DNA from: Pseudomonadota bacterium
Lineage (GTDB): Bacteria; Desulfobacterota; Desulfovibrionia; Desulfovibrionales; Desulfovibrionaceae
Length of the DNA stretch: 48,822 nucleotides
NCBI GenBank assembly: GCA_018817515.1
Contig: JAHIUD010000006.1
Location: forward strand, 1 to 48,822
Direction: 5' to 3'
The notes under the pieces were generated by a model. The model was given only the letters and a program-made list of their open reading frames with translations. It did no database searches and had not been told where the DNA came from. Positions 5,491 to 48,822 of the stretch are shown piece after piece. How positions within the stretch are numbered: the first letter of the stretch is position 1; each line of letters starts with the position of its first letter. The position numbers and the translations under genes are program-made.

Positions 5491-5931
5491 GTGGAGTTTC
5501 CCAAGGTCTTCCCCACCTCGGTCACCTGGTACGGCCACCGCGTGTCCTATGGCGAGACCGATGCCATGGGCGTGCTTTACTACGCGGAATACTTGCACAT
5601 CTTTGAGCGCGCCCGCAGCCAGTTCCTGCGCGAGCGCGGCATGGGCTACAACCTTGTGGAGGAGCGCGGAGTCATCCTGCCCGTGCGCGAGGCCTGGTGC
5701 CGCTACCGCGCACCCTCGCGCTACGACGACCTGCTCTGGGTGCACTGCGGCGTGTCCGGCTGGGGCCGGGCGTCCATGCGCATCGTCTACGAGTTCTGGA
5801 GCGAGGACCGCGCCCAGCTGCGCGCCCAGGGTTACACCGAGCACCCCCTCGTGAACAAGCAGGGCAAGCTCATCGCCGTGCCCGACTGGTTCAAGGAGCT
5901 GTGCGAGAGCACACCGCAGACGCCAGAATAG
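5491..5931 (+). CDS. acyl-CoA thioesterase, YbgC/4-hydroxybenzoyl-CoA thioesterase family
   Basis: 146-residue hot-dog-fold thioesterase. The signature YGETDAMGVLYYAEYLHIFE contains the Asp of the YbgC-type active site, and RYRAPSRYDDLLWV is the typical following strand. It hydrolyses acyl-CoA thioesters; in Tol-Pal-linked YbgC proteins it associates with phospholipid synthesis at the inner membrane, but no tol genes are next to it here. The start is GTG at 5491, two bases after the apgM stop codon, with GGAGG lying inside the end of apgM. The frame remains open upstream but only as the antisense-like shadow of apgM. Substrate is unknown. Confidence 0.88.
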   Translation: MEFPKVFPTSVTWYGHRVSYGETDAMGVLYYAEYLHIFERARSQFLRERGMGYNLVEERGVILPVREAWCRYRAPSRYDDLLWVHCGVSGWGRASMRIVYEFWSEDRAQLRAQGYTEHPLVNKQGKLIAVPDWFKELCESTPQTPE

Positions 5932-6041
5932 TCGCACGAGAGGAGCCGCGACAGTAAGCGCTCCCTCGCTCATTTCTCCTTGCCCCTGATGCATTTCGGC
6001 GTAATGTCCAGCCTTTGCCAATGCATTCAGGAGTTTCGCTC

Positions 6042-6842
6042 ATGTTCACCGACACCCATTGCCATCTGTTCCACCCGAAGATTGCGCAAAAGGCGCTGGC
6101 GCAGCTGGAGAACCACTACGGCATCGCGCCCGTGGGCACCGGCCTGCTGGACGACCTGCTGGCCCGGGCCGACCGCGCGGGCATCGCGCGCGTGGTGGTG
6201 CACACCGCCGCCACCGACCCCTCCCAGGTCATCCCGGCCAACAACTCCGCCCTTGCACTCATGCGCACGTCGCCGCGCATCACAGCCTTCGGCACCCTGC
6301 ACCCGGACTTTGACGATGCGGAAAAGGAGCTGGACCGTCTGGAGCGTGCGGGCATCAAAGGGCTGAAGTTCCACCCGGACTTTCAGGGCTTCTTCATGGA
6401 TGACCCCAAGTTTTTCGCGCTCATGCAAAAGATCGGCAGCCGCTTCATGCTCATGTTCCACGTGGGCGACAGGCTGCCGCCCGAGCAGAACCCGTCCTGC
6501 CCCATCAAGCTGGCCCGGCTGCGCCGGGAGTTCCCCGGCCCGGTGATGATCGCCGCGCACCTGGGCGGCTACCTGCACTGGAGCTTCGCCGTGGAGCACC
6601 TGGCCGGGCTCGACATGTACCTGGACACCTCAAGCTCCCTGCGCGTCATCCCGGACGATACCCTGCGCGAGCTTGTTGCCCGTCACCCGGCAGAGCGGCT
6701 GCTCTTCGGCAGCGACTATCCCCTGTTCGACCCGGTCGACGAGATCGCGCTCATCAAGCAGCGCCTCGTGCCCCTGGGCCTCAAGCTGGACGACCTCCTG
6801 GCCGCTGGCACGGCCCTGTTCCCCGCTCCTGAGTCGAAATAG
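6042..6842 (+). CDS. amidohydrolase-family metal-dependent hydrolase
   Basis: 266-residue TIM-barrel hydrolase of the amidohydrolase-2/TatD-like kind. The N-terminal metal motif DTHCHLF (His-x-His), GLKFHPDFQGF in the middle, a histidine in MLMFHVGD, AAHLGGY and the late Asp in LLFGSDYPLFD give the expected ligand set. The natural substrate is unknown. The ATG at 6042 follows AGGAG by 8 bases; an ATG nine codons earlier lacks a ribosome-binding site. It stands alone between the thioesterase and a bidirectional terminator, and converges with gap. Confidence 0.88.
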   Translation: MFTDTHCHLFHPKIAQKALAQLENHYGIAPVGTGLLDDLLARADRAGIARVVVHTAATDPSQVIPANNSALALMRTSPRITAFGTLHPDFDDAEKELDRLERAGIKGLKFHPDFQGFFMDDPKFFALMQKIGSRFMLMFHVGDRLPPEQNPSCPIKLARLRREFPGPVMIAAHLGGYLHWSFAVEHLAGLDMYLDTSSSLRVIPDDTLRELVARHPAERLLFGSDYPLFDPVDEIALIKQRLVPLGLKLDDLLAAGTALFPAPESK

Positions 6843-40513: not shown

Positions 40514-40607
40514 GGAAGCGTATCGTCACCGGTGTGGCGCCCAGACTTCAAATCTGGTGTGTGGCCGAGAGGTCACAGGTAGGTTCGACTCCTATACGCT
40601 TCCGCCA
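40514..40607 (+). tRNA. selC: tRNA-Sec (anticodon TCA)
   Basis: 94-nt selenocysteine tRNA including encoded CCA. The acceptor stem has eight pairs (GGAAGCGT at 40514-40521 with ACGCTTCC at 40596-40603), the discriminator is G and CCA follows. The anticodon arm CCAGA-CTTCAAA-TCTGG (40541-40557) has TCA at 40548-40550. A long variable arm and a TTCGACT T-loop are present. The extended acceptor stem, long variable arm and TCA together identify selC. Its 3' end is a common integration target, and phage-type genes begin about 500 bp downstream. Confidence 0.95.
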
Positions 40608-48002: not shown

Positions 48003-48232
48003 CCGCCCTCGAGATCCTCTCCACCGTCCTGGCCCTGGTGGCCGTGTGGCGCATCGGCAAGCTGGACGTGCGCGGCCAGTACCTCATGCTCGCGGCGCAG
48101 CTCGGCTGGGGCGTGTTCGCCGCCCTGGGCGGGCACTGGGCGCTCTTGGCGCAGAGCCTGGTGCTCATCGGCCTGACGATGAAGGCCATCCGGCACTGGC
48201 GGGCGGAGCAGTTCAAGCGGGTTGGGGCATGA
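47999..48232 (+). CDS. small membrane protein, holin-like topology
   Basis: 77-residue protein with two or three hydrophobic segments (LEILSTVLALVAVW at about 4-17; LMLAAQLGWGVFAAL and LLAQSLVLIGLTM later) and a basic C-terminus. That topology fits a small phage membrane protein such as a holin or an exclusion protein, but no endolysin lies beside it. Overlaps the previous gene by ATGA. Confidence 0.65.
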   Translation: MTALEILSTVLALVAVWRIGKLDVRGQYLMLAAQLGWGVFAALGGHWALLAQSLVLIGLTMKAIRHWRAEQFKRVGA

Positions 48233-48414
48233 ATGACCCTTACGAGGAGAGGCTACGAGCTGAACGAGCTGCCGTGCGCGAGCGCGAAGAGGCCCTCAAG
48301 CCAAAGGTTCACAACTATCCGCCTATCTCCAAGTTCACGGAGAAAGTCCCACGGCTTGAGCGTCGCAAGGACAGGCGGAAGAACAAGCGAAGGAAGAGGT
48401 TGAGGAATAGGTAG
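48229..48414 (+). CDS. very basic small phage protein
   Basis: 61 residues. The N-terminal third is an acidic-basic helix (YEERLRAERAAVREREEAL) and the C-terminus is a cluster of Arg/Lys (RRKDRRKNKRRKRLRNR), suggesting nucleic-acid binding. ATGA overlap with the membrane-protein gene. Its stop is directly followed by the structured RNA candidate. Confidence 0.6.
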   Translation: MNDPYEERLRAERAAVREREEALKPKVHNYPPISKFTEKVPRLERRKDRRKNKRRKRLRNR

Positions 48415-48417
48415 AGG

Positions 48418-48498
48418 TGGGGGCTGCCCTGTGGTGCGCTAACACCACCTGGCGGCCGGATAAGTTGCAGTATCCGACCAGGAAAAACCCAGCCCCCA
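48418..48498 (+). ncRNA. candidate structured RNA: three-way junction with competing downstream hairpin
   Basis: Outer stem TGGGGGCTG (48418-48426) with CAGCCCCCA (48490-48498), nine perfect pairs, encloses two hairpins: GTGGTG-CGCTAA-CACCAC (48431-48448), and CGGATA (48457-48462) with TATCCG (48471-48476), extended by CTGG (48449-48452) with CCAG (48478-48481). The closing C-run can instead pair with GGGG at 48517-48520 around a CTCG/CGAG hairpin (48502-48513), an on/off layout just before the gene at 48539. No tRNA features are present. Function unknown. Confidence 0.55.
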
Positions 48499-48538
48499 GA
48501 TCTCGTAGGCGAGTTCGGGGATAGCACAAGAGGGTCGG

Positions 48539-48822
48539 ATGGAAAACCTCAAAATCGAAGAGTGGCCCGTGGAAAGACTTAAGCCCAGCGCAACCCAGCT
48601 CCGGCAGCATGATGCCGCCGTTCCCCGCATGGCCGAGGCCCTGCGCGAGTTCGGCTTCCGCGTGCCCCTGCTGGCCAAGAGCGACGGCGAAGTCATCGAC
48701 GGCCACCTGCGCCTCAAGGCCGCCCTGGCCATCGGCCTGGCCACGGTCCCGGTCATCCTGGCCGACGACCTCACCCTTACCCAGGTGCGCACCTTCCGGC
48801 TCCTGGTGAACCGCTCGGCCAC
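48539..48822 (+). CDS. ParB-like nuclease-domain protein, N-terminal part
   Basis: First 94 residues of a protein continuing past the window. ParB/Srx-type core is visible: VERLKPSATQLRQHD, then MAEALREFGFRVPLL, KSDGEVIDGHLRLKAALAIG and VPVILADDLTLTQVRTFRLL. In phages this domain is often fused to a DNA methyltransferase, or acts alone as a ParB-like DNA-binding nuclease; which applies cannot be seen. Only a weak GAGGG precedes the ATG. The structured RNA lies in the 124-bp gap before it. Confidence 0.8.
   Translation, partial: MENLKIEEWPVERLKPSATQLRQHDAAVPRMAEALREFGFRVPLLAKSDGEVIDGHLRLKAALAIGLATVPVILADDLTLTQVRTFRLLVNRSA

Follow-up and report, generated by a model that had tools for sequence, protein, structure and literature searches.

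A recurring structured element before phage DNA-modification genes, with signs of selection for different folds on its two strands

The window, the whole stretch of DNA analysed here, comprises 48,822 nucleotides of a Desulfovibrionaceae genome (GenBank assembly GCA_018817515.1, contig JAHIUD010000006.1). Near its right end, between a small gene and a truncated DNA methyltransferase gene, lies a structured element (positions 48415–48538) that is found again, with numerous compensatory changes, in dozens of divergent prophages. Besides this recurrence and covariation, comparison of the copies shows an association with modification genes, complementarity of one helix strand to the start-codon region, and a wobble bias towards the strand opposite the gene. 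The features of the locus are listed below (plus is the gene strand).

48229–48414, plus: small upstream gene of 61 residues without a Pfam match, whose stop codon (48412–48414) abuts the element
48418–48426: 5′ strand of helix P1, forming nine pairs with 48490–48498 (UGGGGGCUG/CAGCCCCCA, in the sense of the gene strand)
48490–48498: 3′ strand of P1, with a C-run common to P1 and P4
48426–48453: hairpin P2, fast-evolving, with one base in common with P1
48454–48479: hairpin P3, whose 3′ strand is also used by the start-codon helix, Pstart
48418–48498, minus: three-way-junction fold of helices P1, P3 and P2, a candidate antisense RNA
48422–48457, plus: P2ext, a lengthened P2 (GGCUGCC/GGCGGCC), part of the alternative fold of the gene strand
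48494–48520, plus: P4, a CCCC/GGGG helix around a CTCG/CGAG hairpin, mutually exclusive with P1
48471–48479, plus: 5′ strand of Pstart, UAUCCGACC, pairing with 48533–48541
48533–48541, plus: 3′ strand of Pstart, the start-codon region GGUCGGAUG
48522–48526, plus: UAGCA, conserved as UANCA (TGNTA on the opposite strand), directly 5′ of the Shine-Dalgarno-like bases
48530–48534, plus: GAGGG, Shine-Dalgarno-like as read from the sequence
48539–48822, plus: gene for a ParB-domain DNA methyltransferase, truncated at the end of the window (456 residues in its relative at locus L006)

P1 encloses P2 and P3 in a three-way junction, as can be read directly from the sequence; an earlier note on this DNA had described a nine-pair outer stem closing two hairpins, and it lies just where the note placed it. 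The alternative pairing described there is equally present: the C-run at 48494–48497 pairs with GGGG at 48517–48520 around the inner helix CTCG/CGAG (48502–48505/48510–48513), and 18 nucleotides separate the end of the GGGG from the ATG at 48539. P4 is kept, with altered sequences, in both subclasses of the element defined below, as judged by eye. The complementarity of the P3 3′ strand to the start-codon region (48471–48479 with 48533–48541) and the opposite-strand signal were both absent from the earlier note. In many copies the small hairpin of P4 is a perfect DNA palindrome of 12–14 bp and of variable sequence (for example, GCCATGCATGGC and GCCACGCGTGGC); it was seen to the right of the core in L024, L023, L125, L234, L363 and L365, and the window copy is without it. 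The palindrome might act as a protein-binding site or form a kissing loop.

BLAST against 288 genomes of the family gave matches in 12 at E ≤ 0.01, of which the window, the same-genus genome G007 and four divergent copies are real, and the other six (L026–L031) were judged to be chance. Further copies came from pattern searches of viral contigs. Thirteen copies in minus-strand orientation, the window not among them, were used to build a covariance model, R1, which matches the minus strand of the window at 70.5 bits. R1 has matches in 35 of the 288 family genomes at E ≤ 0.1, including 20 matches in 20 genomes at E < 1e-8; in a draw across the phylum, 7 of 395 genomes match at E ≤ 1e-3, the window's own among them, and a search of the order added no genome to those of the family search. 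L430, one of the seven phylum-wide matches, and the weak matches L355 and L357 were judged from their surroundings to be chance. We use 34 distinct cores as the main class, taken from the best 38 of 78 model-search rows; a second subclass of 12 loci (11 distinct sequences) came from weaker same-genus model matches and a pattern scan, and five more distant copies lie beyond both. L353, L356, L358–L360 and L362 were left out of use, and the weak family matches G036, G045, G145 and G146 were left uninspected. A right-flank pattern picked out 49 stretches of viral contigs; among those listed only L241, L266 and L396 carry the element (L241 and L396 are also matched by the model), and the remaining stretches look like chance.

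BLAST with the element found no relative in INPHARED (three queries) or PLSDB (two queries), and four weak Streptomyces matches were judged to be chance. The element's pattern had no match in 13 viral loci carrying a relative of the ParB domain; 290 INPHARED records with such a relative lay outside the model scan. The earlier note knew of no named family with this layout, and in Rfam 15 there is indeed no match within the element, for the window and ten further loci, nor anything listed there below E 0.5. Open-access literature on structured prophage RNAs and on antisense RNA before prophage methyltransferases, judged by titles and the openings of abstracts, did not contain it either. We consider it a real new RNA family without an Rfam entry, recurring in phage DNA-modification operons; the kind of control suggested below is already known, and we found neither the family nor its two-strand design described in the open-access literature searched.

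The earlier note had made its stems depend on compensatory changes among homologous loci, and the covariance comparison found such changes. In alignment A5 (13 sequences, minus strand), 97.0% of pair cells are formed, compared with 89.8% in shuffles, and 10 pairs have changed on both sides, compared with 3.6; none of 500 shuffles was as high, and pairing drops to 29–53% when the structure is slid along the alignment. Over the 34 main-class copies, P1, P2, P3 and P2ext each score above all 2000 shuffles.

Since G·U in one strand corresponds to mismatched A·C in its complement, wobble counts tell the strands apart. Read as minus-strand RNA, the junction contains 76 G·U and 11 A·C cells in the 34 copies, 29 of the G·U cells belonging to one nearly fixed position of P3. 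On a tree of 31 downstream proteins, P2 has undergone 37 inferred changes to another Watson-Crick pair and, in gene-strand terms, 13 events to A·C and none to G·U; for P1 the events are five and four, or three and none without the terminal pair. With neutral scoring of 47 distinct P2 stems from all classes, the gene strand has 42 A·C (in 31 sequences) and 2 G·U (in two sequences of one lineage). P2 is therefore under selection as a helix of the non-gene strand. The helices of the alternative fold stand against a preference for that strand only: over the 34 copies, pairing at the four added positions of P2ext reaches 97.8% when the RNA is read as plus (91.2% is the shuffled mean) and 76.5% when it is read as minus, and the 6-bp core of the start-codon helix has 12 G·U and 3 A·C on the plus strand. 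Two signals coexist, a start-burying fold on the gene strand and a wobble-tolerant junction on the opposite strand.

The 6-bp core of Pstart is 97.1% paired over the 34 main-class copies, compared with 95.7% in shuffles (1 of 2000 as good); the margin is small because most copies share CGGAUG. Where the sequence departs from this, the start region tracks the P3 3′ strand: CAUUCG/CGAAUG in L343 and L346, AUCCGAUC/GAUCGGAU in L349, UCCAGUC/GAUUGGA in L351, a further case in L340 and, by eye, CAUCCGAUC/GAUCGGAUG in L426 and AUCCAA/UUGGAU in L428, where P3 has lost two gene-strand pairs. L314 retains GGUCGGA a few bases 5′ of its ATG. UANCA is present in all 34 main-class copies (the start sites of L234, L287 and L330 being corrected by hand for this count), and lies 17–18 nucleotides from the start codon in the 31 copies listed and, by eye, 17, 17 and 19 in the other three.

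Minimum-free-energy folding, one of the checks named in the earlier note, singles out part of the element: the 82-nt junction alone (48418–48499) stands out, at −40.6 kcal/mol and z −3.90 with none of 200 shuffles equal to it, but the whole 124-nt stretch is unremarkable. For positions 48415–48500, z is −2.83 when the gene strand is folded and −5.05 for the opposite strand, and the minus-strand core is more stable than the plus in 33 of 34 copies, by 6.2 kcal/mol on average. In longer context, the minimum-energy fold of the gene strand contains the lengthened P2, P4, and the P3 3′ strand AUCCGACC paired with GGUCGGAU across the start codon. When each fold was forced in turn, 28 of 34 leaders had a lower energy with the start-codon fold than with the junction (by 2.5 kcal/mol on average; −53.0 versus −46.4 kcal/mol in the window), a result weakened by the use of standard pairs only, so that the start helix was partly forced in L314, L341, L351 and others. 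The helix pairing over 34 copies and the forced folding together support the proposal that two mutually exclusive folds lie next to the start codon. The significance of the element derives from comparison across copies, rather than from the energy of the whole stretch.

The earlier note placed the element before a ParB-like gene, as it is, although the gene is a fusion of ParB and methyltransferase domains and other modification genes follow the element elsewhere. The full-length relative at L006 in G007 matches PF01555 (E 1.3e-26), with ParB_N at 20.6 bits, under the Pfam cut-off, and it matches PHROG 498 (DNA methyltransferase) and, strongly, several ParB-like PHROGs. Within the main class, a ParB-methyltransferase comes next, by sequence, in 31 of 34 copies, truncated in two by the end of a contig or of the window; the remaining three are L245 (an N6_N4_Mtase alone) and L232 and L234, whose gene is ParB-like by eye (in L232 it has no Pfam match, and it matches PHROG 7405, of unknown function). 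In the second subclass the element precedes D12 (Dam-type) methyltransferases (L363, L372 and, by sequence, L376), com and then mom (L365, PF10122 with E 3.7e-24 and PF25680 with E 3.9e-82; L374 is the same sequence), com and an N6_N4 methyltransferase (L373 and, by sequence, L367), com and a C5 methyltransferase (L364, L378 and, by sequence, L377), or com and an ATPase/acetyltransferase-like protein (L375); L366 is truncated where its contig ends. These com genes were identified by Pfam in L365, by genome search in L364 and L367, and by sequence in L373, L375, L377 and L378. Four distant copies stand before D12 methyltransferases (L428, L431 and, by sequence, L426 and L429), and L427 stands before a ParB-like gene (by eye, no Pfam match) followed by Mom (PF25680, E 6.8e-50). 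In L426 (genome G656) the Dam-like gene is apparently split into two open frames of 74 and 232 residues. The downstream genes are thus of several unrelated types, and all of those identified are DNA-modification genes or com; the element therefore marks phage DNA-modification operons and not one protein. A leader specific to ParB or to the methyltransferase was rejected on the same grounds, together with the presence of the element at only one of the best 80 relatives. Of 10 genomes examined for Com, 7 have a homologue, and the window's own is one of them, with its copy elsewhere in the genome (G000:C15:6823–6969; PF10122, E 2.1e-21); Com was not found in the other three genomes searched, G019, G254 and G261, all with the element.

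Positions 48412–48822 are 97% identical between the window and G007, 48228–48411 are replaced there by unrelated DNA, and homology resumes at 48227. The replacing segment in G007 carries an AT-rich leftward gene (L006:5977–6453, minus strand; 158 residues, membrane-like by eye) in place of the 61-residue gene, its start facing the element. After the ParB-methyltransferase, G007 has the terminase small subunit, a second DNA methyltransferase and the terminase large subunit. In G007, the single copy for which terminase genes were checked, these genes follow the element, but in the second subclass it lies after tail-type genes (by eye) and before com; with two such different places in phage genomes, the packaging signal raised in the earlier note is unlikely, and so is a cos site. 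Further left in the window, genes at 41.1–44.6 kb match phage primases, and just before them lies a selenocysteine tRNA gene (selC; 40514–40607, plus strand; RF01852, 83.6 bits, and ARAGORN). The G007 sequence taken for comparison matches the window from 40831 onwards, which makes selC a possible attachment site.

Signals for transcription of the element are sparse. In a promoter scan with weighted scores, the highest-scoring minus-strand site coincides with the conserved TGNTA in 35 of 48 copies, and the median rank-p is 0.08 for minus and 0.23 for plus; TGNTA is a weak candidate for the extended −10 of a minus-strand promoter. L431 has a strong intrinsic terminator for leftward (minus) transcripts at about 254–281, starting 14 nt beyond the core, and L427 has a plus-strand terminator 31 nt from the core. 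In L245, a viral contig whose element is followed by a lone N6_N4 methyltransferase, a type II hammerhead (RF02276, 47.3 bits) at 1575–1646 on the plus strand ends 4 nt before the core, suggesting transcription of the gene strand there. Strong hairpins directly before the subclass-2 elements of L365, L367 and L373, at the ends of the upstream genes, would leave little room for a separate gene-strand promoter; L367 has no consensus promoter or terminator in 5900–6400.

We propose, with a probability of roughly 0.45, that the element combines default-off translational control, as at Mu mom, with a structured antisense RNA, as at P22 sar, in phage modification operons. In the default fold of the mRNA leader, the 3′ strand of P3 would pair with the start-codon region, P2 would be lengthened, and the C-run of P1 would be taken into P4, keeping the modification gene off. 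The opposite strand would give a structured antisense RNA of about 80–100 nt, a three-way junction complementary to the leader, which might set the switch by pairing with it, either repressing the gene or releasing the start codon by capture of the anti-start strand. Selection on the fold points to the antisense RNA as such; transcription of both strands, an effect of the pairing on translation and the direction of that effect are our own extensions of the comparison. A broader version is put forward more tentatively: selection would act on the two strands of a single 130-bp element to fold them differently, into a start-hiding leader and a switch-throwing junction antisense RNA, and phages would place this plug-in regulator before whatever modification gene they have. 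Phage DNA modification defeats restriction, its premature production can harm the host, and the control of Mu mom is the best-known case of such timing; the element probably keeps modification genes off until they are needed. If so, a single RNA element serving methyltransferase, ParB-methyltransferase and com-mom cassettes would solve the timing problem in a general way and provide a handle in the search for unknown phage modification genes, and the opposite-strand wobble bias yields a testable claim of an antisense RNA.

A number of observations weigh against this proposal. No consensus sigma-70 promoter or terminator was found in 48200–48822 of the window; the promoter score rewards TG, and 28 of the 35 TGNTA sites are without the last T of the −10. 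Among 50 copies (L428, whose place is unresolved, was dropped from the scan), the left flanks hold one plus and one minus terminator, 48 having neither, and terminators were rejected as evidence of strand. The start of the downstream gene has no clear extra synonymous conservation (0.47 for the first ten codon columns and 0.49 for the rest, all pairs; in one clade 0.72 and 0.61, with other windows of that clade reaching 0.79), for which reason an antisense promoter hidden there was rejected. P3 wobbles are about even between the two types on the protein tree (four events to A·C, three to G·U), in subclass 2 each type occurs once in P3 (L367 and L364, by eye), and 10 of the 42 P2 A·C are near-fixed outer positions of subclass 2. 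P4 has 44 A·C and 16 G·U under neutral scoring, an excess that comes mostly from helix ends; its middle has U·G in several lineages. The small shuffle margin of the start helix is equal on either strand, and its 9-bp form favours neither (0.820 versus 0.814). Subclass-2 genes start 58–65 nt past the core and, by eye, without a CGGAUG match; a stem holding the start codon is present in the main class and was not seen, by eye, in that subclass. The 124-nt stretch (z −1.27) is equalled by 21 of 200 shuffles and has a minimum-energy fold that differs from the junction, and a 181-nt fold (z −1.14) is equalled by 25 of 200. Among the best 80 of 514 methyltransferase relatives in GTDB genomes, of which at least L047 is without upstream sequence, only G007's own copy has the element.

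The most serious competitor, though in our view doubtful, confines the control to the gene-strand leader: a protein, either the modification enzyme or a zinc-ribbon protein resembling Com, would flip translation between two states, and there would be no antisense RNA. This reading would account for the position of the element, the near-fixed spacing from UANCA to ATG, the fit of P2ext to plus RNA only (0.978 versus 0.765), the hammerhead of L245, and com as the first gene behind several subclass-2 copies, with homologues in 7 of 10 genomes. However, P2 is common to both gene-strand folds and yet almost all its wobbles are of the opposite-strand type (42 versus 2; 13 events versus 0), and the three element-carrying genomes in which Com was not found do not fit. 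That same wobble bias, with the greater stability of the minus strand and the minus terminator of L431, would suit the reverse and distinctly less likely case, a sar-like antisense junction RNA that represses the modification gene, with the gene-strand alternatives as by-products. Against it stand the tracking of the P3 3′ strand by the start region before non-homologous genes in six lineages (two of them sisters in the protein tree), the retention of P4 in both subclasses by eye, and the lack of a convincing promoter.

A folded single strand of DNA, at which phages would recombine to exchange modification cassettes, could also produce a one-strand wobble bias, the sharp homology break at the left edge of the element between the window and G007, and the same element beside different cassettes; we give it little weight, as near-fixed start-codon spacing and conservation of UANCA and the start region point to translation. 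A riboswitch was among the options of the earlier note; one with a small-molecule ligand such as S-adenosylmethionine draws on the two exclusive folds before methyltransferase genes and is very improbable: the element has no Rfam match, its wobble bias and its junction favour the strand opposite the gene, a preference not expected of a plain riboswitch, and it also precedes com-mom, a modification whose chemistry is not known to depend on S-adenosylmethionine. Nothing points to a metabolite ligand. A chance structure in GC-rich DNA, which the modest z of the 124-nt fold might suggest, is refuted by the covariation (0 of 500 shuffles) and the recurrence and has a negligible probability.

Among the closest known systems is the com-mom translation inhibition structure (TIS) of Mu, in which the TIS stem holds the GUG start of mom and Com binds an adjacent hairpin (PMC6483171). 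In the main class, as in Mu, the start codon of a modification gene lies within a stem of the leader, which in Mu must open for translation; several copies stand directly before com, and mom (PF25680) follows in L365. Unlike the Mu TIS, which lies between com and mom, the element lies before com (L365, L364, L367, L373, L375, L377 and L378) or before a methyltransferase without com; its three-way junction, the competing fold that excludes it and the opposite-strand signal are further differences. The likeness to P22 sar, the position of which is arc-ant intercistronic, is a fold under selection on the strand complementary to the target gene (P2 wobbles 42 versus 2, events 13 versus 0). Sar is a small phage RNA from the opposite strand that base-pairs with ant mRNA and blocks its translation (PMC13397905); the target genes differ, and the antisense RNA of the element is a candidate predicted from sequence. 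The element itself has no hammerhead match, the type II ribozyme (RF02276) lying just upstream of the L245 copy. In IS10 RNA-OUT/RNA-IN and plasmid CopA/CopT, a folded antisense RNA likewise faces a ribosome-binding region, a likeness of general design.
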